Assembly: GCF_002234675.1 (NCBI RefSeq)
Contig: NC_019859.2
Coordinates: 31,412,434 to 31,476,433 of the forward strand
Length of the DNA: 64,000 nucleotides
DNA from: Oryzias latipes
Taxonomy: Eukaryota > Chordata > Actinopteri > Beloniformes > Adrianichthyidae
Reading direction: 5' to 3'
Shown: piece after piece, positions 7,711 to 62,324 of the stretch
Numbering within the stretch: the stretch's first letter is position 1
Layout of the letters: every line of letters starts with the position of its first letter
Notes under the pieces: generated by a model
Databases searched by the model: none
Seen by the model: only the letters and a program-made list of their open reading frames with translations
Told to the model about the DNA's origin: nothing
Position numbers and translations under genes: made by a program

Positions 7711-8108
7711 ACCCTTGTGCTATCTTAGATGACCCCACCCTTACATTGACGTGTTCTCCCTACCATGACAAAGGTGGATAAAGTTGGAAAGATTTCATGT
7801 AATCCATGGACACCAGTGAAGATCACAAATCATTGAAGAAAAAGGGTTCAGCGCACTGTCTAGTGCAGGGATCGGCAACCTTTACCACTCAAAGAGCCAA
7901 TTGGATCAGTTTCCCATAGAAATAAAAGCACAGGGAGCCGCAACAATAGGGGTGTTAGAAGAAATCGTTTCGCCAAAATATCGCGACACTTCATTTAGTG
8001 ATACTTGTATTGATTCAAAATGCCGTCAGATTATTTATTTTAATTATTTATGAGCGTGTGAGTTTTCCTTTGATCTTTTGTCCATTTTCCACAACCTTAA
8101 ATAGAACT

Positions 8109-8220
8109 TCAAAGCACTTCATGATCACCGGTGTCAGAGCGACCGGCCGGTAATCATTGTCTCGTGCCTCAATGATTACCGGCCGGTCGCTCTGACACCG
8201 GTGATCATGAAGTGCTTTGA
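8109..8220. repeat. 51-bp perfect inverted repeat at LINE 5' junction
   Basis: Positions 8109-8159 are the exact reverse complement of 8170-8220, separated by 10 nt (8160-8169). Both arms encode the same stretch of reverse transcriptase ([16 protein letters not shown]), so a short inverted copy of the LINE lies head-to-head with its truncated 5' end. Confidence 0.95.
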
Positions 8221-9394
8221 GAGGATCATCCTGAACCACATCAAGGACATCATCCCTGCTACTCTGGACAGCCATCAGTTCGCTTACAGGGAGAACCGAT
8301 CGACAGAGGACGCAGTTTCATTAGCCCTGCATGCTACCCTGTCCCACCTGGAGCATCCTGACACCTATGTCAGGATGTTATTTGTGGACTTCAGTTCAGC
8401 CTTTAACACGGTGATCCCGGACAAGCTGACACTGAAGCTCCACAACCTGGGTCTGCCTGCCTCCCTGTGCCTCTGGATCAAAGACTTTCTCACCAACAGG
8501 CCCCAAGTGGTGAGAATCGGGGACTCAACATCATCCACTCTGATCCTGAGCACAGGAACACCACAGGGGTGTGTCCTCAGCCCCGCCCTCTTCACTCTGT
8601 TCACCCACGACTGCTCCGCTATTCATTCCACAAATCTGGTTTTAAAGTTCGCCGACGACACCACCGTAGTGGGTCTCATATCCAACAATGATGAGACTCA
8701 CTACAGAGAGGAAGTTCAGCACCTGACAGGATGGTGTGCTGACAATAACCTCATCCTGAACACCTCCAAGACCAAAGAGATCATCGTGGATTTTAGAAGG
8801 ACTAGAAAGGTGGCACACCCCCCCCTCCTCATTAACGGGGAGGAGGTGGAGCGAGTGGACCACATCAAGTTCCTGGGGATCCACATCACATCTGACCTCA
8901 CCTGGTCGCTGCACACATCCCACCTGGTGAAGAAGGCTCAGCAGAGACTCTTCTTTCTAAGGAAGCTTAAAAGGACAGGAGTTTCATCACAACTTCTGGG
9001 GAACTTCTACAGGGCAACCATTGAGAGCATCCTCTGTCTGAGTGCTACGGTGTGGTACGGGAGCTGCACCGCTCAAGACAGGAAGGACTTGGCCCGGGTG
9101 GTGAAAACCGCACAGGAGATTGTGGGAGGACCTCTCCCACAACTCGACTCAGTGTACGACAGCCGGGTCCGACGGAAGGCTGGTCGTATTGCTGCAGACC
9201 CCACCCACCCAGGACATAACCTGTTTGTACCTCTTCTTCCCTCTGGGAAGAGATACAGGAGCATCAGAACTCACACAAACAGACTGAGGAACAGCTTCTT
9301 CCCAAGAGCAGTGAGGTCTATCCACCCCCCCCCCCCCCCCACACACACATCACACAACTGGGTCAACGAAACCGCCCCCTCCCCCCAGACTTAA
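8171..9394 (+). pseudogene. LINE reverse transcriptase, 5'-truncated open frame
   Basis: An uninterrupted frame of about 407 codons running from the inverted repeat to TAA at 9392-9394. Family motifs in order: YRPVAL (block 1), the [10 protein letters not shown] block with the first catalytic Asp, [10 protein letters not shown], the catalytic FADD box at 8648-8659, then the GIHITSDL region and a C-terminal [12 protein letters not shown] stretch typical of fish L2/CR1-like LINEs. The N-terminal half of ORF2, including any endonuclease, is missing. The frame is open, but the copy has no promoter or complete protein and is treated as a relic. Confidence 0.85.
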
Positions 9395-10280
9395 CATAAC
9401 CCACTAACCCCTGTCAGCACACAGCTGACAATGCTCTGACTGTATTTTAAACTATGTATGCAATATTCATGCTGTATGTGCAATATCCATTCTAATGTGG
9501 AATACCCACTCATGTGCAATATTCACCCCCCTCTACTGTACAGTATTTATGCCTTATATAGCTCCTTATTCTTATTTTATTTTATTCTACCTTTTTATAT
9601 TGTTGGACGAGAGTTGCTGGAAAAAATTTCATTGTGCACTGCAGAATGATAATAAAAAAGAAGATTCTGACTTTTCCTTTTGTCAAACACAGAGTTAAAA
9701 TGAGTGAGATGATGGAATCCAAATTCACTTTGATGCAACTTCTTTTTATTTTTTTCTTTAAATTCAGTAAACCCAATAAAGTATGTTAATATTCCAGAAT
9801 CATAAGCGGTGAGTCTAAGCCCCTCCCCTGCCACTCTACCTGTTCACATCCTCTGCAGCTCCAAGTTGTTTTCCCCCACGTGCAACCCCCCCCCCCTCCA
9901 GCGTGTCCTACACAGCGCAACATACGGTCATCATCGCAGCAGGTTGACAGGATAGTAGGGGCGCCCTTACGCAAATGTAATTACTTTTATGCAGGAATGT
10001 GTGGTTTTAGTTTGGGGGAGAAAAATAAGGCTTTTTTTTGGCGCTCATGTGCCCCCTACGACACTGCCACTGAGTGTCTTTTTAGAAGAGCTTTCCATCC
10101 CATAACAGACTCTGTACCGCTTTCACAGACACAGACACCCCCCCTAGACAATCTTAGAACATGATGGTTATTTTACAAAACCACAGAGAGCCGCAGCACA
10201 GAGATGAAAGAGCCGCACGCGTCTAGTGGGTCTAGATTACCCAACTCCCAATGGTAAAGTGTCTAGGATAGCACAAGGGT

Positions 10281-11700
10281 TACTTCTGTCTGATAAAGTT
10301 ATGAACCGGATAATGATAAATCATGTAATAAAATGGTTACAGTAGAACAGGGGTGGGATTATATAAATTCGCTTCCTTCCACTCCCTTTCAAGAAATCTT
10401 TAATTTAATGTCTAAATATCCTAAATTTGATATGTCATTGTATGAATGTATAACTTATGATTGTATTGTTTTTGTGTATTATTCTTATTTAATTGCTTGA
10501 AATAAACCATTTCAAATCAAATACTGTTTATGTATATTTAACACCTTTTACGTACATTTGATGCCTTGAAGCGGTTCAACTTTACTGAACCAAACTGATG
10601 AAAACAAGTGCCTTGTTATGACTTTTGAAGGAAACGTTCGTCTGGGTGTTGCTCCACAGTGCAGCAGAATGACCTCGTTCAGCTGTGTGACAGGAGCCTG
10701 GATCCAGAGCCATTTGATTGGACGCTGCATCCAGATGGACACCCATATCCCAACTAGTTAGAGTACGAGCCACACCTCCAGGACCATATGAAGCCAAAAA
10801 GTGATCAGTATACTCCTCCCCTCCTGACAGGAAGCGGGGCGTGGAAATGAGTGTTTTCTCCTTTACAATTTGTGTGTATTCAGACAGGAAACGCCAATGC
10901 TGCCATAAAATCTGCCTACGTTTTACTGCAAGCTGCTTGACACCCGGAGCTCCGTACAACTTTGATTCAACTTTGATTTTTCTAAACATGATTTTTGTAT
11001 CTCATTTCCTCATCAACCAACTTGGCGAGGCTAGCGGAGGGCTACCTCAACACTTCTTTATAAACAGGAAACTTGATAAGGCCCAATCTCAAGGTTTTTG
11101 GACTTTGTTTTTCTTTACAACCATGGCAGATTGGGCTTCAGTTGTTATTCTTGTGTTGGCCTCCTGCCAGAGAAATGAGCATTTCATGCACTAGAAAGAA
11201 TAAAACGGGGACAAACTACAACGAATCCAGACATCGAAACCAGAGCAGACAGATTTGAACTTTCAACCTTTGCAGATTACCAAGGGGATGTTAAAAAATA
11301 GGCATTATTGTAGGTTAAGAATGTGTGGTGAATCTGCTGCTTCTGTTTGCCACCAAACAGGATTTTCCAGTGTAACCACATGCAGGACCTCCCACCTGAA
11401 GCCTGACGGCCAAACCTGAATAACACAAGCAGGAATTTATCTACCAACAGAGAGATGCAGACGTGTTTAAGCTGAAGTAAGATACAAATTTACGGGATTG
11501 GTAGGAGGAATGAGCTTGTAGAAATACTCCGCAGTAGTTTTTAAATGCTCTGTAGATAATTGCAGAGATTTCGCAAACATAACACGAGGGTGAAAAGAGA
11601 TCTGCTCTGCCATACCTGTAAGTCCTGTATGCAGAACTTCCTGTCTTGCAAACAACCATGCAGCAGTACCCGCTGACTTTTCCTCTTTGAAGAAGCGACA
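10281..11700. other. Intergenic / upstream of ART gene 1
   Basis: No exon could be supported, although several short frames are open. The stretch 11430-11724 directly upstream of the first ART gene may hold its 5' untranslated exon: an AAAAG|GTAAGG donor-like site lies at 11724/11725, and a CTCTCTCAG acceptor lies at 11841-11849. Confidence 0.4.
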
Positions 11701-11851
11701 TGTTGCTCTAAATACCTAAAAAAGGTAAGGCGGAAAATTTACTTGAAACGATATTTTTTGGTAGAATTGATTTGCTATCTGTTGTCTTAAGCATTTATTG
11801 TAACACTGAGATGAATGTCTCTGATTCTTGGTGTTTTGTGCTCTCTCAGAT

Positions 11852-12959
11852 ATGAAGCTTGTGAAAGGAGCTGTGTCTGGGATAGGCATCCTGAGAAAAT
11901 GGGCAGTTTTTTCCATGGCAGCACTGGTGTTGCTTTTGTTATTGAACGACCCATTTCTGATACTCTGGTGGCCTCAGAGACCTCTCGAGGTAAGCTTCGA
12001 ACTCTTTTTGTGATGTAAAATTGCGTTTTAGCTGATGCTTATCCCTGTTATTGGTTTTCTCATATCTGCAGAAAACAGAAGTGGTGGTTTCACCTCTGGA
12101 TATGGCTACAGACTCCATCGACGACATGTATGCAGGCTGCAGACCTGAAACCGCCGCAGTGATTGACCTGTTTGGTGTGTTTGAGTGGAATTACAATGGA
12201 AACTTCAGCCAGGCCTGGGCTTTCGCTGAGAAATATGCAAATAGGCCTGTGCACGAGCGCTTAAAAGAAGACCACGCTATTGCGATGTATATGTACACGA
12301 AACTGTCACACATCCGGGAGGTTTTCAACAAAGCCGTGAAGACAGGGAAGCACATGTACAACACGCACAGGTTTAGATTCCACTACTTGTACTTTTTCCT
12401 GACTGACGCTATTCAGAGCCTGCGTCACAATCAGACGTCGTGCAGAACCACCTACCTCAGGACGTGGAAACACTTTGACCAAAATGTGGTCCACACACAG
12501 GTGCGTTTTGGTCATTTTGTCTGGGCAGCATCCAGCAGTCTGTCATTTGAACTTCATGGCAACGTGTCCTGCTTTGAGATCTACACGTGCTACGGAGCTG
12601 ACATCACGTATTACTCCGGCATCAAGCAGCAGGGGCAGGTGCTCGTCCCCACCTATGAGGTCTTCAAAATCACTAAAGTTTCCAAGCGTGAGCCCTGGTG
12701 CAGCGTGGTCTACAAGCTGGAAAGCACCAGAGTACCAAGAGCCGACCAGAACTGCAAACTTGGAGAAGAGCGAAGTGAAACATTTTTAGCAGCTGCCAGA
12801 ACATTCTGGCTCGGACACAGCACTGTGAAGGTGTGGATTTGTGCACTCCTGCTGGTGGTTTGCTCTATGGTTCTTGTCAGAGGAAAGCAGACACGTTTTG
12901 TCGCTGTTGTGCTGGGAGCTCTGCTTTTACTGATGGTTGGTGTGTTATTGTTGAGTTAG
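11852..12959 (+). CDS. Ecto-ADP-ribosyltransferase-like, catalytically degenerate, membrane-anchored
   Basis: Two coding exons, 11852-11989 and 12072-12959, joined in phase 0 by a GT-AG intron (CTCGAG|GTAAGC ... CTGCAG|AAAACA); 341 aa. ART family enzymes transfer ADP-ribose from NAD+ to arginine on surface or secreted proteins. Exon 1 gives a hydrophobic signal or anchor (MAALVLLLLLNDPFLILWW). Exon 2 has the family start DMATDSIDDMYAGC, the RFGHF...SSSLS block, the Cys pair around FEIYTCYGAD and the LVPTYEVF strand. Two catalytic positions are changed: the Arg after Tyr is Leu175 (TAC CTC), and the ExE is Gln233-Gly-Gln235 (CAG GGG CAG). Three extra residues (VWA) lie in the Ser loop. The C-terminus has two hydrophobic stretches split by RGKQTR, suggesting a GPI signal or TM tail. 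The frame is intact, so this is a likely pseudoenzyme rather than a pseudogene. The start is the first ATG after a CTCTCTCAG acceptor; an untranslated first exon ending near 11724 is possible. Confidence 0.88.
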
Positions 12960-12967
12960 CCAGCGAA

Positions 12968-12973
12968 AATAAA
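12968..12973 (+). terminator. Poly(A) signal AATAAA of ART gene 1
   Basis: AATAAA lies 9 nt after the stop codon. The placement is very close, so other downstream signals could also be used. Confidence 0.5.
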
Positions 12974-13675: not shown

Positions 13676-13989
13676 TTGATGCGCTGCTGACTTTGGTGGT
13701 TTGCCCACCTAAAAAAACTGACATTTATTCATCCTAATGGTAGGGTACTTGAACAGTGAGAAACAGAAAATCACATAGAAATCAATTTTAATGAATTTTA
13801 TATACATTTCATTTTATATTAGTAAATTTTGATATGTTAAAAGATTAATTTTTAAAGGACGCCCCTCACAAATTGATGGATAAAATAGAACTGAAGAGAC
13901 AAAATTGTTTGTTATGAACCTTATATCTAGTTTAAAATGTCAATAGTCAAAGTGTATCATGTTTTAGGATTCTGAAGAAGACACATGTA

Positions 13990-14186
13990 ACCCTTGTGCT
14001 ATCCTAGGCACTTTAACATTGGGAGTTGGGTCATCTAGACCCACTAGACAGTGCTCTGAACCTTTTTTCTTCAATGATTTGTGATCTTCACTGGTGTCCA
14101 TGGTTTACATGAAATCTTTCCAGCTTTGTCATGGTAGGGTGAACACGTCAATGTAAGGGTGGGGTCATCTAATTTAGCACAAGGGT
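13990..14186 (-). repeat. 207-bp TIR/TA MITE, copy 5
   Basis: Antisense copy with both termini (ACCCTTGTGCTATCCTAG ... TTTAGCACAAGGGT) and TA on each side. It is about 10 bp short inside. Confidence 0.92.
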
Positions 14187-15918: not shown

Positions 15919-16803
15919 ATGTCAGTCTGGGCTGCTTTTCTGCTGATGTTTGGAGCCTCCATGGTGACTGCAAAGGTAAAATGAACCAATGAGGCTTGAT
16001 CGTGTCTCACTGGTAACATTCTGTAGTTATTCTGTATACAGCATCAGTACTAACAATTACAATGCCTTTTTATACATCTATGGCAGGTTTATCCCTTGGA
16101 CATGGCTGACAACTCTGTGGATGACATGTATGAGGGCTGTGAAGACAAAATGTCTGAAAAAGTGGAAAAAGAGTTCCTGGAGAACGAGAAAAACAAAAAT
16201 AAGATATTTCGTGCTGCTTGGAATGAAGCAGAGATGACAACATCTTTGACAACAATTTTGAGTAGAGCTGAGGTTGTGGCCATTTATGTTTACACAAATG
16301 CTTTGACAAAAATTTACAGTGACTTAAATAAGGAAGTTAGAGAACTGGGAACTGAGTACAAGAAGAGATTTAATTATCACTCCCTGCACTTTTTTCTTAC
16401 AAGCGCTTTAAAAAAACTTGACAAAAAGAAAAAAGGAAAATGTTACACTGCCTACAGGAGAACTACTGCCTCCTTCAGTCAGGATGTTCTTAACAAGGAG
16501 ATGCGCTTTGGTTATTTTGCTTCCTCCTCACAGTATCCTTTAGAGTCCAGCCAAAGCAAAGAATTGGAAAAAGATTTTGGAAACAAAAGCTGTTTTGTCA
16601 TTGAAACGTGCTTTGGAGCTGATATCTCACCATATTCAAAGTTTGAAAAAGCAGAGGCAGAAATCTTGATTCCTCCTTACGAGGTGTTTAAAGTCACAAA
16701 TATAGAGACAAGAGCAAAGAAGCAGGAGCTTCCATGTGAGGTTGTTTATACATTGAAGAGCACCGAGAAACCTTTTTCAAAGTACAATTGTGCACTATTC
16801 TAA
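15919..16803 (+). CDS. Secreted ecto-ADP-ribosyltransferase with intact R-S-ExE motif
   Basis: Two coding exons, 15919-15975 and 16087-16803, phase 0 (GCAAAG|GTAAAA ... ATGGCAG|GTTTAT); 257 aa. Exon 1 encodes a cleavable signal peptide (MSVWAAFLLMFGASMVTA). The mature protein starts near VYPLDMADNSVDDMYEGC, the family N-terminus with its structural Cys. The catalytic triad is present: Arg143 after Tyr142 (AYRRT), the Ser block RFGYFASSSQ, and Glu209-Ala-Glu211 followed by ILIPPYEVF. The ExE form predicts arginine-specific mono-ADP-ribosylation. It ends at CALF, with no hydrophobic tail, so it should be secreted, unlike the neighbouring paralogue. It is rich in Lys and Glu. The start ATG is the only one giving a signal peptide in phase with exon 2. 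The tandem position and shared exon layout argue for local duplication. Confidence 0.92.
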
Positions 16804-18892: not shown

Positions 18893-19014
18893 TTTTAAGG
18901 AGGAGAAAGGCCCATAGACCTCCGGGAAAAAGGGAGAGAGAAAAAAAAAAAGAAGCAGCAGAAAGGTACGTGGCTAACAAGTGGTTTGGTTAGCCTCTCA
19001 CAGAGAAGTGAAGC

Positions 19015-19527
19015 ATGGCAACAATTGGCACGCTAGCAGCGTTTGATCCGAAAACTCAAACCTGGGATGAGTATACAGAAATACTTGAACAGTTTTTTGC
19101 GGCCAATGAAATAGACAATGAAGACAGACAAAAGGCAATATTGATAAGTGTAGTGGGAGCACCGACCTACAGTTTAATGCGCAACCTCCTCAGCCCAGAC
19201 AAGCCAAAAGACAAGTCCTTTAATGAGCTTGTATTATTGATGAAGAACCATTATGACCCAAAACCAAGCGAAATCGTACAGAGATATAAGTTTGATTCTC
19301 GTAACCGGAAGCCTAATGAAACAGTTATGGATTATGTAGCTGAGCTGCGTCGTTTGGCCCAAGACTGCAACTATGGAAACACTCTGCAACAAAGGCTGAG
19401 GGACCGGCTTGTATGTGGGATTAATGATGACAGGATTCAGAGGTGTCTCCTGGCCGAAACAGATCTCACTTTTGAAAAGGCTCTGGGAATTGCAGTATCA
19501 CATGAGACGGCAATTAAAAATGCATAG
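19015..19527 (+). pseudogene. Gypsy gag (capsid region), ended by in-frame TAG
   Basis: A 170-codon frame starting MATIGTLAAFDPKTQTW and containing the gypsy capsid signature (WDEYTEILEQFF; later FDSRNRKPNETVMDYVAELRRLA-type text). It stops at TAG 19525-19527. The zinc knuckles that normally end gag lie downstream in the same frame (19615-19716), so the stop separates capsid from nucleocapsid. It may be a point mutation; programmed readthrough is less likely at this location. Confidence 0.85.
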
Positions 19528-21618
19528 GATCTGCAGACTGGCACATCTACAAAATGCTACAGCATCAGTAGAGGACAACAGGAAACTCGGGCATTCCAAG
19601 GAGTCAGAAAAGAATGCTACAGGTGCAAAGGAACTGGACACACAGCTGCAGATTGTAAGTACAAGCAGGAAAAATGTCATGCTTGTGGCAAAGTGGGTCA
19701 TATAGCAAGAGCTTGTAGAAGCAAAGTTAAAAGCAACCCAGAAAAACATGAGCATAAACATCACAAGAGAGAAAATAAACGGGGATCACATTATCATTCT
19801 CATAAAGTGTATGACACAGAAGATGAAAAGAAAAGTGAGGATGAAGATCAAGACTCTTTTGCTTTGAACTGCATCAATAGTGGACCAAATCTAAAAGGCA
19901 ACGTGTACAAAGTAGGACGTCAGGCCGGAGGGGACCTCGGAAAAGTGGCGCCCTACACGGTAAAATTGAAACTGAATGGACAGTATGTCAACTTTGAACT
20001 CGACACTGGATGTTGTTTAACCGTCATGAGTGAAGCCACATTTAAAGACACATGGAAAAACACAAAACTTCCCAGTCTGAACCTGGCCAAAATCAAAATG
20101 GAAACCTATACAGGGGATCCTGTGGAGGTGATTGGTACCACAAAAGTAACTGTACAGTACCAACAGCAGACATTGAAACTGCCCCTGATTGTTGTCAAGG
20201 GGGAAGGGCCCAGCTTGTTAGGTCGAGCCTGGTTGGAGGAGTTAAGTCTGGATTGGAGAGAAATAAAAAAGAGATGTAAAGCTGAAAGAGTGCACAAGGT
20301 TAAAGAAAATGAAAACACACTACAGCAAGTGTTAAACAAGCATGAAAATGTGTTCAAAGAGGAGTTGGGCACCCTGAGAGGCACAAAAGCCACCATTCGG
20401 GTAAAATTAGATGCCTCCCCACGTTTCTTCCGCCCGCGTTCTGTTCCTTTTGCTATGCGAGCAAAAGTTGATGAAGAAATAGACCGCCTATTAAAAGAAA
20501 ATATTATCTCTCCAGTCAAATATGCTGAAGGGGCAGCGCCGGTGGTACCCATTCTTAAACCTACAGGAACTGTAAGACTTTGTGGAGATTATAAACTGAC
20601 TGTAAATACAGTGGCTTCATTGGAGCAGTATCCTATTCCAAAAGTGGAGGATCTATTCACTGCGCTGTCAGGAGGAAAACAGTTTTCTAAACTAGACATG
20701 AGCCATGCTTACCAACAAATACTGCTGGATGAAGAATCAAAGAAATATGTGACGGTGAACACCCACAGAGGACTTTTCACGTACAACAGACTGCCATTTG
20801 GAGTAGCATCAGCACCAGCCATATTCCAGAGGACGATGGAAAACCTTTTAAAAGGTATACCATTGGTGGTGGTCTACTTAGATGACATCTTGGTGAGTGG
20901 CAAGGATGAGGCAGACCACCTAAAAAACTTGACTGCGGTGCTGGGCAGGCTGGAAGAAGCAGGGCTGCGGCTGAAAAGAAGTAAGTGCGAGTTTATGCAA
21001 AAAGAGGTGGAATATTTGGGGCATAAAGTTGATGCACAAGGTCTCCACCCAGTGCAAAAGAAAGTGGAAGCCATTTTAAATGCTCCGGCTCCCACCAATG
21101 TAACTGAACTTAAATCGTACTTGGGTTTGTTAAACTATTATAACAAATTTCTCCCAAACTTGGCGACCCTGTTGGCCCCCCTTCATGAACTCTTGAGGCA
21201 GAATGTAAAGTGGTCATGGCAACAGAGGCATGTTGAAGCATTTGAAAAGTCAAAAAGGCTGCTGAGCTCCGCTGATGTGTTAATCCACTATTCAGCTGAT
21301 AAAGAGTTAGTTTTGTCATGTGATGCATCACCTTATGGTGTTGGAGCTGTGTTGTCACACAGAATGGAGGATGGCTGTGAGAAACCACTAGGTTTCATGT
21401 CACGTACTCTCTCACCCGCTGAAAAAAGATATTCACAGTTGGACAAAGAAGCATTAGCAGTAATATTTGGTCTGAAGAAGTTCCATAAATATTTGTATGG
21501 CAGAGTTTTCACGATCTACACAGATCATAAGCCACTGATTTATCTTTTTAACATGAAGAAGCCCATACCTCAAATGGGCTCACCAAGAGTGCAAAGATGG
21601 GCTATCAAGTGCATATGA
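19528..21618 (+). pseudogene. Gypsy nucleocapsid, protease, reverse transcriptase and RNase H
   Basis: Same frame as gag. There are two CX2CX4HX4C knuckles (19615-19656 and 19675-19716), then an aspartic protease with the DTG triad (from 20002). The reverse transcriptase has the KLDMSHAYQQ block and YLDD box (20875-20886). RNase H has the CDAS, KEALAV and TDHKPL motifs. The frame runs out at TGA 21616-21618. The reading continues one frame over from about 21608, so a small indel lies just upstream. Confidence 0.92.
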
Positions 21619-23098
21619 GTATGACATCGTCTACAAACCAGGCAAAAGCCATGCTAACGCGGATGCACTCAGTAGATTGCCGCTACCTGAAACAACACCA
21701 GAAAAAGAGTCTGTTGAACAAGTTTTGATGATGGATGTCTTGGATGACACACTGCTGGACACCAGACAGATCAAGCGATGGACATCTACAGATGTTCTTC
21801 TGTCCCAAGTCCATGAGTACATACTAAAAGGATGGCCGGAAAAACTGGACGCCCGCCTAAAGCCATATCAACAAAGGAAAATGGAGCTAAGTGTGAGGGA
21901 TGGATGTGTGCTCTGGGGAGCTAGAGTGGTGATTCCAACCAAAGGGAGAGACAACATCCTGAAGCTTCTACATCAGACTCACACAGGCATGTCAAAGATG
22001 AAAGGTCTAGCAAGGTCATATCTTTGGTGGCCAGGTATGGATGAAAGCATCGAAAAGGAGGTGCAGTTATGTGAAGAATGTCAAAAACACCACAAATCAC
22101 CACCCGCTGCACCATTACACCCCTGAGAATGGCCAGAAACACCGTGGTCCAGAATCCATGTGGACTATGCAGGACCGTTCCTAGGTGAGATGTTTTTATT
22201 GGTGGTAGATTCTCATTCAAAGTGGATGGACATTTATCCTGTGAAATCAGCTACTTCACAAATAACCATTGAAAAACTGAGGCAGAGTTTCAGTGTGTTT
22301 GGTCTTCCAAAGATGCTGGTATCAGACAATGGGACATGTTTCACAAGTGCAGAATTTGAGTCATTCATGAAACAAAATGGAATTGACCATGTAAGATCTG
22401 CACCTTTCCACCCATCCTCTAACGGTCTAGCTGAAAGAGCAGTGCAGACTTTTAAGGAGGGGATGAAGAAGATAAAAGGTGACACCCTCCAAACTAAACT
22501 GTCAAGATTTCTGTTCAGTTATCGAATTACACCGCATGCAACAACAGGTTTGTCCCCAGCAGAACTGATGATGTCACGGAGACTTAGATCAGCTTTTGAC
22601 CTGCTCATGCCGGATGTAAAAACTAGAGTTCAGAAAAAACAACTGAAACAGAAAGACCAACATGACACAAAGAAAACATTGAGAAGTTTTGTATCAGGAG
22701 ACAAGGTGTTCATCCGAAACTATTCCTATGGTCCAAAATGGATACCAGCAGTCGTGATGGACTCATCAGGTCGTCGTACATCAGTGTCGTACAACGTCAG
22801 CATCAGGAATGGCCGAACTATGAAGAGGCATGTGGATCAAGTCCGAGCTAGGCTCCAAGACACTGTTCTAGGGGAACCGGAGGCAGACCGGGAGCTGTGC
22901 GAAGATGGGGAAACTGTTGCAGTTGAGGAAGCACCTTTATGTGTGGTTTCTACAACCCAACTGTCATCAGATGAGTCACGTGACCCAACACCAGCGACTC
23001 CCCCTAGGGTTCCTCCTGAGTCACCAGTTGCACCTGTGTTGCGACGCTCACAAAGAGAGAGACATTTACCAGGACATCTCAAAGATTTTGTTAGATAG
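21608..23098 (+). pseudogene. Gypsy integrase, interrupted by TGA
   Basis: Shifted frame after the RNase H break. The HHCC zinc domain (His pair near 21970, CEEC near 22072) is followed by TGA at 22124-22126, in the place where the family usually has Trp. After that come the catalytic Asp in VDYAGPF (22163), Asp in SDNGT (22325) and Glu in LAERAV (22433). The last pair is 35 residues apart, the D-D35-E spacing. The C-terminal chromatin-binding-like part ends at TAG 23096-23098. Confidence 0.9.
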
Positions 23099-24552: not shown

Positions 24553-27236
24553 TGTTTTATAAACATGGGGAAAAACCAAGTAGACTTTTAGCTCATCAAA
24601 TTAAAGTAATGGCGGTAAGAAATCAAATTGAGGAAATAATAACAAAATCGGGCACTAAAGCCTCGACCAACAAGCAATTAATACAGAATTTAAAATGTTT
24701 TACAAAGATCTGTACTCATCTGAAGTTGAAGATGCTAACCTTGTAAACAATTTTTTTGAAGATCTTTCTATTCCTTTAATTAGTCAAAAGAATAAAACAG
24801 AGATTCCAGAGAGCTCAGTTACATTGGAGGAAGTAAAACAGGCCATTAAAGACCTTCAGAGCTCCAAAGCTCCAGGACCTGATGGCTATACTGTTGAATT
24901 CTATAAACCTTTTATTGATAGGCTGGCCCCGGTGTTGTTGCAAGTATATAATGAATCTCTCTGCCTTGGTAGGCTCCCTCAAACTTTTTATCAGGCAACA
25001 ATATCTGTGATCCATAAAAAAGACAAGGATCCTACATCTGTGTCCTCATACAGACCTATAAGCCTTTTAAATGTTGATTCTAAAATTCTGGCAAAAATTT
25101 GAAGTAACAGATTAGAATCAGTGCCACCTACAATTATCCATGCCGATCAAAATGGTTTCATTAAAAATAGACAGCTATCTCATAACCTTCGTCGTCTCTT
25201 TAATATCATCTTTACAAGAGGTGAAAAGCCCACATCTGAATTACTCATCTCATTGGATGCGGAGAAGGCCTTTGATAGGGTGGAGTGGTCTTACCTCTTC
25301 TTCACCCTTGCAAAATTTGGTGTTGGAGACAGTTTCATCTCCAGGGTTAAATTATTATATGCCTTTCCAGTCGCCTCTATTCAAACAAATGGCTATAGAT
25401 CGGAGTACTTTCCACTTGCCAGGTCCACAAGACAGGGCTGCCCATTATCCATTACTTTTTCCTATTGCAATTGAGCCACTTGCAATCTCTTTACGCACTT
25501 TGGAGGACTATACAGGCATTTTAAGAGCAAAATGCGAACATAAAGTTTCACTTTATGCGGACGATCTGCTGTTATACGTCTCAAATCCTAGCATTTCTAT
25601 TCCAAGGATAATGAAAAAAACTAGAATTCTTTGGATATGTATCTGGCTATAAGATAAATATAAATAAAAGTATAATTTTTCCAATTAATGACACCCGTGT
25701 CAACATATCTGGACTTCCCCTCAAGTTTTCATACCAATTTAAATACTTGGGAGTTACAGTTACATCATCGGTAAAAGAACTTTACAACCAAAATTTCGCC
25801 AAACTAGTTGAACAAACCACCATTGACCTTGAGAGATGGTCTTTTTTTCCACTCTCTCTTGCCGGTCGTGTGGGGGTGATTAAAATGACAGTGCTGCCCA
25901 AATTTTTGTTTTTGTTTCAATCTATTCCTCTCCACCTAAGCAAATCTTTCTTCAAAAAATTAGACAAGACAATACTGGAATTCATTTGGAATAAGAAAGT
26001 CGCTAGGATTAGACGTGAGTTTCTACAAAGAGCAAAATCCTCAGGAGGGATGGGCTTACCAAATTTTCAGCTTTATTATTGGGCTTGTAACCTTAAAAAT
26101 ATTTCATTTTGGATCACAGAGAAATCTCCAAACTGGATGGAGATAGAACAGAACCATTGCACCCCTTCTTCCCCTAAGGCATTTGTTTTTGCAGACATAA
26201 CTACAATATCACTAAAATACATTAAGGATTTGGTTGTATCCCACACAGTCGGAATATGGAAACAGATTGTGCGTCATTTTGGCCTGCAAGCAAATTCATT
26301 GTCAGGTCCTATTGTTAGAAACCATTTGTTTTTTCCATCAATGAAAAATGATAATTTTGCTGACTGGTATGATCGTGGACTACGTGTCTTCAAAGATCTC
26401 TATGTTGATGGTTTGTTTCCATCATTTGAACTGTTGAAAGACAAATATAACTTGCCTAACACTCACTTTTTTAAATTTTTGCAAGTAAGAGACTTTGTTA
26501 GACTCAACTCTCCAAATTACCCACAACTCCCAGAGGAATCTGTTACCGATTCATTATTTTTGAAAGACCCTGAGATTAGAGGCGGAATATCACATTTGTA
26601 CAACAAACTGAGCCACCTCAATGGCCACAGCACTTTGCAGCACTTGAGGGAGGCCTGGCAGGAAGAGCTCGGAATAAATATTTCAGAAGAGCAATGGGAT
26701 CTAGCTTTAGGCTCCACACACACAACCTCAATCTGTGCCAGGCATGGTTTGATTCAGTTTAAGATAATACACAGGCTCCACTGGACTAGGCTCAGGCTGA
26801 GTAAGATATTCCCTGACGTTGACCCTCTGTGTATACGCTGTAGACAGGCTCCAGCATCTTTGTCACACATGTTTTGGGGTTGCTCTAAGCTGTCAAACTT
26901 TTGGTCTGATGTTTCTCTGACACTGTCAAAAATTTTAAACCAGACAGTCAAGTTGGACCCCCTCATCGGTATTCTGGGAATCACCGACCCCCAAACTTTT
27001 AAAAACAAATCTGAGCGTAGGTTAATTCATTTCACATGCTTACTTGCACAGCGAATAATACTTTTAAATTGGAAGCAAACACAGCCTCCCACACACATCC
27101 AGTGGATTAGAGACATTTTATGTTTTCTAAATTTAGAAAAAATTAGGTACACCCTACAAGGACGGGAAGAGAAATTTTTCAATGTTTGGTCCACCTTTAT
27201 TAAGGACTTATGGGGTTTGCCTAATTATATAACTAC
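24553..27236 (+). pseudogene. Decayed L1-clade LINE ORF2 (reverse transcriptase)
   Basis: A 5'-truncated, frameshifted copy. The frame changes near 24690-24700, 25450-25460 and 25610-25620, with an in-frame TGA at 25100-25102. Recognisable blocks: SSKAPGPDGYTVEFYK, SYRPISLLNVDSKILAKI, the SLDAEKAFDRVEW block with a catalytic Asp, a TRQGCPLS block, the YADD box (25554-25565), and a long C-terminal part with KFLFLFQSIP and HMFWGCSKLSNFW. This order is that of fish L1 ORF2. The endonuclease domain is missing. The 3' boundary is uncertain: L1-like text fades after WGLPNYITT near 27236, with no poly(A). Confidence 0.85.
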
Positions 27237-27595
27237 AGTAAAAACAGGAAGCCAGAACGAGCAGACTGCTAACAAAACTACAGTCTACTTTGTATCTCAG
27301 CCTTTTGTAGCGAAGACAGAGCACTCAACAGAGGTACAACCCTGTAAGAGCGGACGAGCTGTGAAACCAAACCCAAGTGCAAACATGAACACTTGCTTGC
27401 ACTTATTTCACAGGGTGACAGAAGCTACATAGAAGACGCTGCACAAAGAGAAGAGGATTTCAGAACCAGTCAGACCCTGACTGTTTTGATTCTCAAAATT
27501 AACTTTAGAATCAGCCATCATGTAACCGTTCAGGGACAGGACCAAGTAATGGTGACTGCGATCATGCAGGTCAGTAGCTGTGATGTTCATGTCGA
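27237..27595. other. Sequence between L1 relic and retroposon, unassigned
   Basis: The open frame of the L1 continues to 27432 but without recognisable L1 text. No host gene is supported. Confidence 0.35.
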
Positions 27596-28676: not shown

Positions 28677-30636
28677 TTGTTCTGTCCAACAGCTGAGCAA
28701 ACAGATTAGAGCTGAAGGCTTTTTGTGTTGGACAGGTTTTACTATCACAAAAAGAGGTTATATAGCTTCAAGAAACTAGAGTGTAGATTTGTATAAACCC
28801 CTTTTTGTCGTATTATTTTTTATTTATTTGTTACATTTAGTGTGTGTGGGGAGGGAGAGGGGAAGAATGTGAGGGGAGGGTGGAAGAGAGTAAAAGGAAG
28901 AAAGGTGAAAAGGTGGGGGATACAAGCACTGATTTGACTAAGTTATTAATTTAAGCTGTAACAATTATACCAGATCTGCTGGAAAGACGAATGTTACATC
29001 AAAGGTGAAAATCTGACACTAAGATGAGCGAGAAAAAAAAACTGTCCATCAATACACTGTAGGTAAGGAGGAGGGATGAAGCAGACAGGGAGCAGTGTGG
29101 AGTGTGCACGTGCACGTGGGGGTGGAGATACATGCATGCTGCCGACGTGAACCGTGTGTTCATAAAGGGAGCCAGATCCTACCCAGCCAGACCAGCCAGA
29201 CCAGGAGAGGGGAGGAGAGCCCCCCAGGCCAGAAGCCCCCCCAGCATCCGGACCCAGGCAGCCCGGGAGGGGAGGAGGAGGGGACCGCCCACCCCACCAG
29301 CCAGGCACAGAGAGGGCCCCCCTACAGGGGCCCCCCCAATGCCCAGAGGCACAAGCGAACCCAGTGTCCGGCCCCCAGGCCACAAGACAGGAGCGCTTAG
29401 CCGTACCAGGCGGCAGCCATGGGGGCCACCGGGCGCCGGACACCGAGACAAAGGCCAGGGACGAAGCCAGGGCCCCCGGAACCCAAGAGCCGGCCACCAC
29501 CCGACCGGCGCCCCGTCCCCGCAAGCCAGCCCAGGCCCGCGACCTTAGCAACCCAGGGATCGCCACGCACCCACAGCCACAGCCACCCCCCTAAAACCCT
29601 ACGCACTACCACCCCCCCCGCCATAATATCTGACCCCCCCTCCCCAACCCTCTCAGTGCCCTCCCCTCTCTGTGATGGGGAGGGAAAGCCCCAGAGGGTC
29701 CCAGCGAGCCAGCCCCCAGGTCGGTCCTACCCATGCACTCACACACACATACTCACAATCATCTGGTTACCCTCCCTACCCCCGCCGCCAAGCAGCAACC
29801 CCCCCCCCAGCCGGCCGACCCCCAGCGCCGCATGCCCGACCCCTCCCGCAGCCGACAGGACACCCATAAGCCCGGCCGCCCTGAGAGGACCAGGCGTGTG
29901 AAGACCGGCCGCCCCCCCCCGACCCCACCCATGTATGGAGGTGTGGGAGTGCTGTGTGTGTGCTGCAGGTAAAATAGGAGGTCACCAGTGTGGGGGGATC
30001 CACCGCTGCCAAGCCGCAAAGCCCCCCACTCCGGAGTCCCTCTGTGAGTGGTGTGTATTTGCTGTGTGTGTGCTGCTAGCATGCAGTGTGTGTGTCTACA
30101 GAGGAAGTTAAAATTGTGGGGGGGCCAGCGAAAGGTGAGCACGGATGTTTCACCGTGCCCCCCTCCACCAGACCCTCTCCACAAGGCCCTAGATGAATCA
30201 GAGTGTCTAATATGCAAGTAAAAAGCGGGGAGGAGGGCGGGTGCCAACGAGAACCCAGAGAGGGGCATCCCCAGTGAGCCCCGCCAGCATACCCCTCCCA
30301 TCCAGATCCCGGGGCCCTATGTGCCTGTGTGCAATATTTGTTTGGGTGAGAGCGGGGAGGAGCGGGCGGATGGGCACAACCGGGGGAGAAGGCTCCCCCG
30401 AGCGACCGGCCCCCCAGCCGGCCGCGGTAGGCGCCCCCCCTCCCAGAGCGGCCGGGCAGCCAGAAACGCCAAGCCAGCCGCAGTCGGAGGCCAGAGCCTC
30501 GCGGCGCCGAGAGACAGCCAGCAAGGAAGGGTCCCGGTGCCAGAACGGGGGGGCAGGGGGTCCAGCCCCACCATTCATACCCTGGCCCCCCTAAGGACTA
30601 GCACACTGCCCCCCCAGGCCCCCCCCCCAAAAAAAT

Positions 30637-30694
30637 AAATAAGTAATAATAATAATAATAATAATAATACTAATAATACTAATAATACTAATAC

Positions 30695-30738
<44 letters not shown>

Positions 30739-30744
30739 TAATTA

Positions 30745-30780
<36 letters not shown>

Positions 30781-30781
30781 A
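30637..30781. repeat. (AAT)n microsatellite inside L1 3' UTR
   Basis: About 145 bp of AAT repeats with interspersed ACT variants, lying between two GC-rich blocks. Confidence 0.95.
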
Positions 30782-31197
30782 ATAAACCCACCCAAGTGAA
30801 CCCATTAACCCCTGCTGTGACTGCGGGGCCGACCCCCGGGGGGCCAGGCCACGCGCCAACTACCGGCCACGGGCGAAACACCGGCCACGGGCAGACGACC
30901 CCAGGCCCCAGAGCCCCAAGCCCCCCCCCAGCCCCCGCCACGGCGACCAGCCACCCAGCACGGCACCCGGCCGCCGTTCCCGGTCAGCCGCACTGCCTAC
31001 CCTGCGCCCAGCAGGCACCCGCCCAGGAACCCCTGCCAAGTTGCCGGCAGAGTGTGCGCCCCCACCACCACCCCACCCAGGCAACCAGAGCCCCGAACCG
31101 GGAGAACGACAGGCCCGGCAGAGCCCACCCCCCCAAACCCACCCCGGCCCACCCAACCAGCCAGGACCCGGCTCAACCTATCACCATCCCACCCCCA

Positions 31198-31548
31198 CTA
31201 GGTGATGTGACTAACCAGCTGGAGCCAGGGAGAGTCTGAAGCCGACAGGTTTTTTGTGGAGGACATTATCTCTGAACTAATATGCTCTGACATGAGGTTT
31301 CTGTAGTGGTTGATGCTAAGATTATTTTTAGATTTCCAGTTTAGGAGGATAGTTTTCTTTGCTATACATACAGCGGTGAGAACCATATAAGCCTTGTTAG
31401 ATTCCATGTTGATGTTATTCAGGTCACCTAATAAGCAGAATTTGGGGCAAGCAGGAATCTTATGATTAAACCAGATTGATAAATCCTCACAAACCTTACG
31501 CCAGAATGATTGGACAGGTGGACAGACCCACAGGGCATGCAAATAGAA
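31198..31548 (-). pseudogene. C-terminal fragment of L1 ORF2
   Basis: About 116 codons reading LHALWVCPPVQSFWRKVCED and later KKTILLNWKSK, then a stop. These are the terminal Cys-containing and LNWK motifs of fish L1 ORF2. It is cut exactly at the target duplication, so the insertion was 5'-truncated at integration. Confidence 0.85.
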
Positions 31549-35296: not shown

Positions 35297-37794
35297 CTAG
35301 GAATAAGGTAAAGTGTTTTGCTTCAGCTGGCACAGAGTTACTGAGGAGCCTACACCAAAGCCAGCATACAGAGGCTCACTGAAGTGGGCTTTGAACTTGT
35401 GGATGAGCTGCATTGAGTCTGACACAGCATAAAAGGCCAAGGTGTCACCTGCATGGTCCAGGTACACTCCTATTCTGGTGGTGCGGGGAGCGTTGGGGAG
35501 GTCTTTGTCTGCCGTGTTGTGCCAGGCTGAATACCCTGAGTCAGAGCAGAGGAGGCTCCACGACTTGTCATTGTAGCCCAGCAGGCTGGAGTTCTTGCCC
35601 TTGCGGTTGATGCCCTTGTAGGCCACGCCTATGGAAAACTCCCCGCTCCACTCCGCCTCCCAGTAAAACCTGAAACCGGACATGGGCTCCCTGCAAAGCA
35701 CCTGGGAGAAGCCGTCAAAGCGCTCCGGATGGTCTGGGTAAAACTGTACGGACTTCTTTCTGGTGACCCTCTGATTGCCGTCTGACAAAACCAACTCTTT
35801 GTACACCGTGTTTGGATCAAAGGACAGTTTGCAGGCATCTGAGCACAACAACAATAACACACATTTCTCTGTTATGTCCCTTTAAACTGACTCTGATTGT
35901 GTTAAACGTAGATCTTGCCCCTGAAATAGAGAAGGTTTGACTCACATCTCAGAAAGTCTGGTCTAGATTTGGGTTCCTGGAAATCTTTCCTGGAAGGAAC
36001 TGTTAGGATATTTAAAAAATTAACATTCTTGTGGGTTTTAAGTTGCTTATTGCTCAGATTATTCATCATCCCCTCACCTTTCAGACGTTTCTCTCCATTT
36101 CGTGGCAAAAGTATGTAGACAGGAGTTTCACTGACTGAAGATTTGAAGTGTTAGTCTGATCTGTGGTGGATCAGTTCAGGGTACCACAGTCCTACTCATA
36201 TTCTCTGCAGGAACTCACCTGTCTTGGAGATTTTGCTCAGCTCCTTTTTACAAATGTCATCCAGATTCTCCTTCATCTCTGTGGCTGTTTTGCTGATCTC
36301 CCCAAAGGAGAACTGAGGGTTGATGAGCACTTTGGGCACCATGGCCTCAGGAGCGACGCACAAGGTTGGGAAATTCTGTTCAACCAAGAAATGAAGTCAG
36401 TTTCTACCACAGAGATTTAAAAGAAATGATCGTCCAGCACCTGCAGGAAGTGAATGTTGTCCTCTGTTTCAAGAATCTGTCGCAGCTCAGCGTCCCGTCT
36501 CTGCAGCTCCATGATCTCCTGCTCCAAGCGCTCCACGTAGCCGTCGGCCTGTGACATGGCCGCCTGCATGTTGGCCAGTATCATCTGACTGATTTCAGCC
36601 TTCCAGCGTTCGACCGCCTGCAGCATTTCGTGGAACGTCTTGTCGCTTTCTGTCTGCGCTCTCTGGGCGGCGTTCTGCAAAAACCAGTCAGGAGCTTTCA
36701 GGTGCGAATACATTTATCCCACATGTACACCACTGGCAATGAGAAACACGTAACAGAGGAAGAGGAAGGAATGCAGCTGCACCTTAAGTACATCCACATT
36801 GTGCTTGAGCTCCTGCAGCTCCTTCATCCTTTCTGAAATGATGTGCTGCACTTCGGTTTGTGTGACCACCAGGACTTTCTGATGGACACCCATGAAAAAA
36901 AGGAGACAATTCAGATATTTAGATTCTCTATCCTTCATGAAAAGGAAAGGATCTGTTGAACAGCATGTTCTCAGAAGGTGTTCAGACCATGTGGACACCC
37001 CTGAGGTTTTTTCTTTTCTCTGGAATTCGATTTTTTTTTAGGAGTTTTTCCTTACCGCGAAGGATGGTCTAAGAGCAGGGATGCCCAGTTTAGTCTTGTC
37101 AGTAAAGTTAGTTCAGTTTAGAATTTTCCCATTGAATTCTTGATCCTTATGATTTACTTTAAAATTACCGATATGAAGCCCATTGAGACGACTGATGTTG
37201 TGACTTTGGGCGAGAACTCACCTGTTTCTCGATCCGTTCATCTTCGGCAGATGCGATGTTGTGGCTGCGGTGCTCTCTGACGGTACAAAGCACACAGATG
37301 CACATCTGGTCGGTGCGACAGAAAAGCTCCAGGCCCTTCTCATGCTGGGGGCAGATCTTCCTGTCCAGATGTCCCATCTCATCCACCAGCTTGTGTCTCT
37401 TAAAAGTGGACGACTCGTAGTGTGGCTTGACATGTGTCTCACAGTAGTAGGCCAAACACATGAGACACGACTTCACGGCCTTGTTCCGACGACCGACACA
37501 GAAGTCGCAGTAGGATTCCCGGTGCATGTATGGAAAAGGAGTGAGCTGTGGAAGCTGCTGGCGAGGCTGGTGCTGAACATCAGGGAGGTTTCGTCGCAGG
37601 ACAGGACGTGGGGTGAAGGTGGCCCGGCACTGCGGGCAGCTGTATACTCCCATGTGATCAAACTGATCCCAGTAGATCTTGATACAGTCCAGGCAGTAAG
37701 TGTCACCACAGGGAATGGTGACTGGATCTCTAATTCCATCTGCACACAGAGGACACAAAGAATCTGGCGGTAAAGGAAAGCCAGATTCTGCCAT
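35297..37794 (-). CDS. TRIM family E3 ubiquitin ligase (RING, B-box, coiled coil, PRY-SPRY), 7 exons
   Basis: Coding exons on minus: 37794-37222, 36878-36783 (96 bp), 36674-36441 (234 bp), 36375-36219, 36134-36078, 35999-35946, 35838-35297. All junctions are GT-AG and phases agree; 570 aa. The 96/234-bp exon pair is typical of TRIM genes. Exon 1: RING at residues 14-56 (CPLC...CGDTYC...CPQC), B-box 1 about 96-125 (CDFC...CLMC) and B-box 2 about 148-178 (CPQH...CVLC...H). Exons 2-4: coiled coil. Exon 7: PRY-SPRY (LSFDPNT, VQFYPDHPERFDGF, FYWEAEW). The fourth RING zinc ligand, usually His, is Asp31 (GAC). The layout resembles fish finTRIM/TRIM25/TRIM16-like genes, many of them antiviral; the subfamily is not fixed. 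The start is the first ATG, 13 codons before the RING. Exon 6 acceptor at 36000/35999 was chosen because the nearer AG causes a frame break. Confidence 0.92.
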
Positions 37795-38118
37795 CGTGCT
37801 GGATGAAGTAAAAATAAGTAAATTAATATAATTTTTTTGTTCTAAATATCAGAACTGCTCATACAAGAACACCAAGCCAGCGGCTCTGACCTTTTTCTAA
37901 CTTTACAAAATGGTTTGGCCCATATTTAAAGGTAAAGTTTTGTTTGTACTGTAAGCACATAGGTGTCATTTTCCTACATAACCTGTTTTCAGCATTTCAG
38001 TGAAATGACTGAGACTGTGTCAAAGACAAAACAAATTCTAACCCACTGGAATGGAGAGGAATTCACACAATACAGTCAAACACACAGAAAATAAAAATGG
38101 ATTTTGTATCAAGAAACA
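37795..38118. other. 5' flank of TRIM gene
   Basis: Likely promoter side of TRIM. No TATA box or interferon-response element could be assigned by eye. Confidence 0.3.
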
Positions 38119-54196: not shown

Positions 54197-55048
54197 TTAG
54201 AAAAAGTTAGTGCAGAAGTTCTTTTTGTTCTTTTTGTCCTTCCAAGCTTTGTGGAAGTAAAAGAAGGGATATGTGCCTCCAACCCATACCATAAATGAAT
54301 ACGTGATGGACTCCCACAAACAAATTGAGTCCACCAAGTCGGTCTTGGAAAGGTGGAAAACTGAAATCAGAGGTAAATAGCCAACAACTGCAATGGCTTG
54401 GAAGTACAGCACTAAATTAAAAGCCCTTCTCTTCACCAAACTTGATCCATCCTTGCCCCCCTCCCCTGGAGATGGCTTCTTTAAAACTCGGAGAATTGAA
54501 ATGGAACAACCGGAGTTGATACAAAACACTAAAACAAAATATGTTGTGGTCAGATCTAGGTTTACCACTCTACAGAAAACAAGTTGGATGGCACCGATCA
54601 GGAAAGTCTGAAGCCAAATGAAGCAACAAAAGCTCATTCTGTACCTGAAAGCTTTATACCGGAGGTACAGCAATGGATGTACCACTGCAACATACCGTTC
54701 TACACAGACTGTGCTTTGGAACTGAACTCTGGCCATGAAAATAATGCAGATAATTTTAACAACAATGTATGTGAGTTGATCTTTCAAGTTCAAGCTTAAA
54801 AGCAGCAGAGGGACTCCCACAAATCCAAATAGCAGCTCTGAGAGGACCATGTGGAACTCCGACATTTCCATGCGGTTCGTCCAGAAGCCAGGAGACGATA
54901 CCATCAGCTTCAACACGCAGCTGTTGGCAGGCACGGAAATCAGCACATACGGCAGGATTGTAAGACGAAAGATGGGATCCTCCAAGCAGGGATCACAGCC
55001 CTTATATGTCATTGTGTGGTTTGCTTCACTAACTGTTAAGTTTTGCAT
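54197..55048 (-). CDS. Class A (rhodopsin-like) GPCR, orphan, single exon
   Basis: 283 aa, seven hydrophobic stretches. N-glycosylation sites at Asn3 (NLT) and Asn10 (NHT). TM1 keeps the conserved Asn (PANSCVLKLM). TM2 has LSELLFGFVGVP, with Glu71 where most receptors have Asp. The DRY box is ERY (117-119), followed by VAVVHPLLY. TM6 keeps Pro in VVGYLPL. TM7 reads GGTYPFFYF, with Tyr in place of Asn of NPxxY. The C-tail is short and Lys-rich (KDKKNKKN). The protein is shorter than typical peptide receptors. It resembles intronless fish orphan receptors; I cannot name the ligand. It acts at the plasma membrane through G proteins by family inference. The start is the first ATG giving an extracellular N-terminus before TM1. 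Confidence 0.78.
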   Translation of the reverse strand: MQNLTVSEANHTMTYKGCDPCLEDPIFRLTILPYVLISVPANSCVLKLMVSSPGFWTNRMEMSEFHMVLSELLFGFVGVPLLLLSLNLKDQLTYIVVKIICIIFMARVQFQSTVCVERYVAVVHPLLYLRYKAFRYRMSFCCFIWLQTFLIGAIQLVFCRVVNLDLTTTYFVLVFCINSGCSISILRVLKKPSPGEGGKDGSSLVKRRAFNLVLYFQAIAVVGYLPLISVFHLSKTDLVDSICLWESITYSFMVWVGGTYPFFYFHKAWKDKKNKKNFCTNFF

Positions 55049-55436
55049 GACTGTTGAGAGGAAAAAGAGCAGGAAATTAAATTTTTTTTAAATTCATTCA
55101 CAGGAAATACAACATTAGAAAAAAATAAAAAAGCATTTCTTGTACCGACTCCAAAAAACTTGAAAATATAAGGAGTCAAATGGTTCTGCCATTGTGTCAC
55201 ATTTATGGAAATTAAACTTCATTCATAGTTGAATATTTTTGTCTCAATCCAATATATGTAGCTTAGTTTTTAATAAAGGTGAAAAGAATATGCTTGCTTA
55301 AATCTACTCTGAAATAGTTTGCTTCTCCACTACAATTTGAAAACGTCTGTATCTGCGCCGACCTGCATTCGAGCAGCGACTTTCAATGAAAAGTCTGCAA
55401 ACGCACGTAGACCAGGATTTCCGGCTTCTGCGTCTG

Positions 55437-62027: not shown

Positions 62028-62324
62028 ACAGCTTTCAGCAAATACATATGACGTTTGTCCGTTTGCATGAGTTCTTAACCTTAGGTCCGTCCGGATAGAG
62101 ATATCATCCTCTCCCCCTCTCGCGATCTCTTGGGGGTATCTCTCTGTAGGGCTTTACACTTTTATCTATCTAAGTTTTCAGTTCATAATGCAGGAAACTA
62201 TAGGTCGTGTTGTGCATTCCAGATATATGTTGTAAAAGCTGATGATCTTTAATTTGTCAACAATGTACAAGTATCAGTGACGGGAAATATATACCCTGAG
62301 TCAGAAATACCTGAAGAACTTTTA
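62028..62324. other. Short unassigned spacer
   Basis: Contains CTCTCCCCCTCTCGCGATCT; no feature assigned. Confidence 0.35.

Follow-up and report, generated by a model that had tools for sequence, protein, structure and literature searches.

ARTs without a working catalytic motif are a known kind, and the precedents are ART3 and ART4. For the R-S-E clade of ARTs named in PMC7955679, the table of that paper gives the motif of mammalian ART3 as K-L-V, in which all R-S-E positions are replaced, and that of ART4 as G-S-E. Human ART4 is written as Y-S-KxE in PMC2576468 and retains the last Glu in both descriptions. According to the same source, activity was not regained when the motif was restored in human ART4, and chicken ART4 is active. 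The loss in mammalian ART4 is therefore not ancestral to vertebrates. Human ART4 carries the Dombrock blood-group antigens; according to PMC2576468, published in 2008, nothing further had come to light on the function of the two inactive mammalian ARTs beyond what that paper names for human ART4. An inactive fish ART was not found in the titles and abstract openings among the literature matches listed, which is no proof of absence.

Here we describe a fish gene, A, which lacks the catalytic Arg and the E-x-E motif and lies beside a motif-intact neighbour, B. The two genes would form a tractable pair for studying the function of dead ARTs. Both are in the window, which is the whole 64-kb stretch of DNA that was analysed (C1:31412434-31476433), and their features are collected in Table 1. 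We consider it likely that A is an intact, membrane-held ectoprotein of the ART fold that has lost its transfer residues and most likely acts by binding.

Table 1. Features of gene A and neighbour B, in positions of the window.
Feature	Position	Strand	Remarks
Gene A, possible 5' UTR intron	11725..11849	+	Predicted from the sequence: GTAAGG donor, and CAG acceptor at a distance of two bases from the ATG
Gene A, coding exon 1	11852..11989	+	46 codons; one hydrophobic stretch within residues 10-41
Gene A, intron	11990..12071	+	82 bp, GT-AG, phase 0
Gene A, coding exon 2	12072..12959	+	ART domain (PF01129, residues 55-253); hydrophobic C-terminal tail
Gene A, catalytic Arg position	12456..12458	+	Leu175 (CTC)
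Gene A, VWAASS	12519..12536	+	Residues 196-201; Trp197 at, or VWA insert ahead of, the catalytic Ser
Gene A, E-x-E position	12630..12638	+	Gln233-Gly234-Gln235 (CAG GGG CAG)
Gene A, two hydrophobic C-terminal stretches	12825..12956	+	Residues 298-341, up to the stop; KD19 maximum 3.1
Gene A, stop codon	12957-12959	+	
Gene A, polyadenylation signal	12968..12973	+	AATAAA
Neighbour B, coding exon 1	15919..15975	+	Signal peptide-like
Neighbour B, coding exon 2	16087..16803	+	ART domain with Arg143, Ser165 and Glu209-x-Glu211

The exons, intron and frame of A were derived again from the DNA. The coordinates, frame, splice sites, residue numbers and codons given in the initial annotation were all reproduced, and the observation itself therefore counts as confirmed. 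The two exons encode an intact frame of 341 residues, with no stop or frameshift inside it. A random open frame was ruled out: the bases of exon 2 were shuffled 20,000 times, and the frame never stayed open. The G+C content at codon positions 1 to 3 of A is 0.50, 0.39 and 0.59, respectively, and at position 3 it is 0.40 in B. The product has three N-glycosylation sequons. The hydrophobic stretch of exon 1 is predicted to be a signal peptide or a signal anchor. On either side of the gene, at about 10221-10291 and 13979-14049, lies one arm of an inverted repeat of 71 bases with 93% identity, which is possibly a dispersed element.

Gene A matches the ART family of Pfam (PF01129) with E=3.7e-35 and 121.7 bits against a cut-off of 22.3, over positions 1-207 of the 222 in the profile; B matches it with E=1.5e-46. 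In NCBIfam, only matches far under the cut-offs were found. The identity between A and B is 40% by BLAST and 43% in the MAFFT alignment. All six domain cysteines are common to both proteins: Cys69, 170, 213, 219, 256 and 274 of A pair with Cys37, 138, 188, 194, 236 and 254 of B, and two further cysteines of A are both in the hydrophobic tail. The cysteine pattern and the Pfam match bear out the earlier statement that the cysteines and fold motifs of A are intact. In one scan of viral contigs, 62 stretches fitted a search pattern and none of them encoded a relative.

A tblastn search with A and B gave no third ART exon in the 64-kb window, the remaining matches having E values of 0.42 or more. 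The family search covered the whole genome (734,051,031 bases in 25 contigs). Eight candidates were scored and six ART exons reported, namely A, B, one at C1:37.2 Mb (C1:37216532) and three on C12; the count of six is a lower bound, as for large families in that search. None of the 14 control genomes had an ART match in the same search. The other five exons (B and L002 to L005) have the same ART domain as A, and B also shares the six cysteines; identity to A is 36-43% for B, L002, L004 and L005. Unlike A, all five retain R-S-ExE and end without a hydrophobic tail. Judged by their sequences, these five are motif-intact: Arg, Ser and E-x-E are kept in five of five, the Arg motif being YRRT or VRRS, the Ser motif ASTS or ASSS, and the E-x-E motif EAE, EQE (three times) or EDE. 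In B, the retention of Arg143, Glu209 and Glu211 agrees with what had been claimed for it (15919-16803).

The three ART exons on C12 (L002, L003 and L005, at 26.9-27.5 Mb) are motif-intact near-copies of one another. Identity between L002 and L005 is 88%, and the tip branches of the trio are 0.05-0.09 long. From these sequences, the trio is evidently a recent expansion on one chromosome. The ART frame of L003 lies on the reverse complement of the genome orientation.

The closest solved relative of A is rat ART2.2 (1gxy; phmmer E=1.7e-14). We take Arg126, Ser147 and Glu189 to be the catalytic residues of rat ART2.2, and the letters and numbering of the chain agree with these three. By phmmer and by three MAFFT modes, R126 of the rat enzyme maps to L175 of A, Q187 to Q233 and E189 to Q235. 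The confidence of these pairings was expressed as pairwise forward-backward posteriors at the ordinary and at laxer settings. With the rat enzyme, L175 had a posterior of 0.79 at R126 and Q235 had one of 0.98 at E189; with B, the values were 0.994 for L175 at R143 and 0.96 for Q235. At the laxest setting, the values fell to 0.30 and 0.69 with the rat enzyme, where any Arg of A at R126 reached 0.22, and to 0.76 and 0.74 with B. Leu175, Gln233 and Gln235, with the CAG codons of the two Gln, are as claimed earlier, and the alignments with rat ART2.2 and B support their positions.

Two candidates for a displaced catalytic residue were rejected. Arg176 had a posterior in the catalytic site of 0.058 with the rat enzyme (0.12 at the laxest setting) and 0.002 with B. 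Neither the spacing from Cys170 through Tyr174 nor that to VLVP-x-YE is altered in A, so Arg176 does not substitute for Leu175. A nearby Glu shifted into the E189 site was also discarded, because any acidic residue of A had a posterior of at most 0.001 there. The posteriors thus place no adjacent Arg or Glu in the site with any weight at the ordinary setting; an alignment that did so was what the initial annotation had named as evidence against its own reading.

The first position of E-x-E deserves a separate statement, since rat ART2.2 also has Gln there (Gln187). Gln at the first Glu is, on the sequences, by itself no departure from active relatives. The rat enzyme itself has Arg126, Ser147 and Glu189. 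Compared with the R-S-ExE of active arginine-specific ARTs, A fails at the catalytic Arg and at E-x-E. From these residues, loss of catalysis in A is very likely. Rat ART2.2 crystal entries 1og3 and 1og4 differ at E189. Since these E189-changed entries presumably hold bound nucleotide, NAD binding without catalysis is possible for A by analogy, and it would be expected to be weakened by the loss of Arg. It is quite improbable that an unusual site still gives A another kind of NAD chemistry, such as weak NAD hydrolysis: the Gln shared with the rat enzyme and the fact that apparent pseudoenzymes can prove active (PMC7955679) speak for it, but the catalytic Arg and Glu are both replaced and no acidic residue is aligned at the Glu.

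The serine strand of A is less clear. In the two- and three-sequence MAFFT alignments, the column of the catalytic Ser is a gap in A, and in the phmmer alignment to the rat enzyme it is occupied by Trp197. The posteriors with the rat enzyme at this position were 0.42 for Ser200, 0.34 for Trp197 and 0.43 for any Ser, and with B any Ser of A had 0.10. When the paralogues were included in MAFFT, ASSS of A was aligned after an inserted VWA. We are unsure from the alignments whether the Ser is lost or the strand ahead of it carries a three-residue insert. The motif of A had been described as L-S-QxQ; L and QxQ hold, and the kept Ser is unsure, as Ser200 fits only with the preceding VWA insert.

On its sequence, A looks like a further inactive ART, with substitutions different from those of ART3 and ART4. 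Mammalian ART4 resembles A in that it is a surface protein of PF01129 whose motif is degenerate, and also has a phase-0 first coding intron followed by an exon 2 that encodes most of the protein (PMC2576468). Human ART4 retains the last Glu, whereas A has L and QxQ; in the present reading A has two coding exons, against three in ART4, and its C-terminus contains two hydrophobic stretches. A is degenerate as mammalian ART3 is, but the substitutions of ART3 are others and A may still have the Ser. It is very unlikely that A and mammalian ART3 or ART4 are orthologues with a common non-catalytic role. The common Pfam family and the phase of the first coding intron agree with such orthology, and A would be like ART3 (K-L-V; table of PMC7955679) if every motif position were lost, but the substitutions in A differ from both proteins and the activity of the chicken ART4 (PMC2576468) argues against it.

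An alignment of seven sequences, the six fish exons and rat ART2.2, was used for column counts and branch lengths. Thirty-one columns are invariant in all seven, and A alone departs in 5 more (36 in total). Two of the five departures are catalytic, R>L and E>Q; the others are M>T, K>V and R>K, and A keeps 31 of the 34 non-catalytic invariant columns. The probability that both catalytic columns fall among five random departures over 36 is 0.016, a value that concerns columns named beforehand by the finding and is suggestive only, because the six reference sequences include three near-copied paralogues. By the same count, B departs at 3 columns, C1_37216532 at 6 and the rat enzyme at 15, none of them at the two catalytic columns. 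This indicates that A is not unusually degraded elsewhere.

The branch of A measured 1.21 and that of the rat enzyme 1.65; among the fish paralogues, B had 0.75, C1_37216532 had 0.77 and the C12 trio had a stem of 0.78. The deeper supports of the tree, 58 and 60, are too low to fix the order of duplication. With the rat enzyme as the outgroup, 20-21 sites were unique to A versus 13 unique to B. The branch of A, longer than those of the fish paralogues, also fits relaxed constraint as judged from the sequences. We think it unlikely that A is an inactivated paralogue under relaxed selection, with its frame still open and heading to a pseudogene. Its branch length, its unique sites, the lost motif residues and the indel at the serine strand agree with that course, but a gene decaying in this way would have to be squared with a frame free of stops and frameshifts, with the retention of its splice sites, its polyadenylation signal, all six domain cysteines and 31 of the 34 non-catalytic columns, and with 5 departures at invariant columns against 6 in motif-intact C1_37216532.

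Between A and B, synonymous sites are saturated (pS 0.87), and their dN/dS is therefore not measurable. The pN was 0.40, whereas 50 random codon pairings averaged 0.725. This reflects constraint on the A-B pair since their split, not since the catalytic loss, and the constraint may predate that loss. The initial annotation had held that catalysis was lost and the structure preserved. This is supported by the motif kept in the five other exons, by the catalytic Arg and Glu columns among the five departures of A, and by the retained columns and cysteines; the longer branch leaves room for relaxed selection. Selection on A after the catalytic loss is what we infer under the reading of an intact, binding ectoprotein.

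The two hydrophobic C-terminal stretches of A may be a GPI signal or a membrane hairpin. By the GPI criterion, the C-terminus is hydrophobic, but it is split into two stretches. The highest KD19 was 0.72-1.11 in the exon-2 frames of the other five, compared with 3.1 in A, which alone of the six ART exons found has a hydrophobic C-terminal tail. Those five frames stop 3 to 12 residues past the last shared cysteine, with further exons possible. An AlphaFold2 model of exon 2 of A, built with B as the sole other row (two sequences), was poor (pLDDT 36.8). Its helices at model residues 250-269 and 274-294 are the two C-terminal stretches, and these are its best-scored part (block means 53-73). Because the hydrophobic tail is absent from the other five frames, the sequences suggest that A has a membrane tether, either a GPI signal or a hairpin, and that its relatives, apparently including B, are secreted.

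A has lost the residues for NAD:arginine ADP-ribosyl transfer, with the family motifs and cysteines staying in place. With the extracellular membrane topology and binding role that we infer, the hydrophobic ends would hold the ectoprotein at the membrane. What A binds at the cell surface could be some ligand, another ART as its partner, or NAD that is not turned over. A role as a decoy, NAD-binder or ligand, as proposed earlier, is plausible. It is rather doubtful that in this fish lineage a secreted ART gave rise to a membrane-anchored, receptor-like pseudoenzyme by removal of Arg and Glu, reshaping of the serine strand through the VWA insert and gain of the hydrophobic ends; such a protein may capture the substrates or partners of B.

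The rest of the window contains other frames. A reverse transcriptase is located in the retroelement-like frame at 8105-9394. Further retroelement-like frames were recognised by eye from the translations at 19012-23098, 24659-27432 and 59641-62034; Pfam gave no match for the one at 59641-60186. Long frames rich in proline, glycine and arginine are present on both strands at 28994-31239 and are probably G+C-rich repeats. On the minus strand at 35297-37848 are parts of a TRIM-like gene, one frame with RING and B-box and another with PRY-SPRY. A Rhodopsin-family receptor frame of 296 residues (PF00001) is found at 54197-55087, also on the minus strand.
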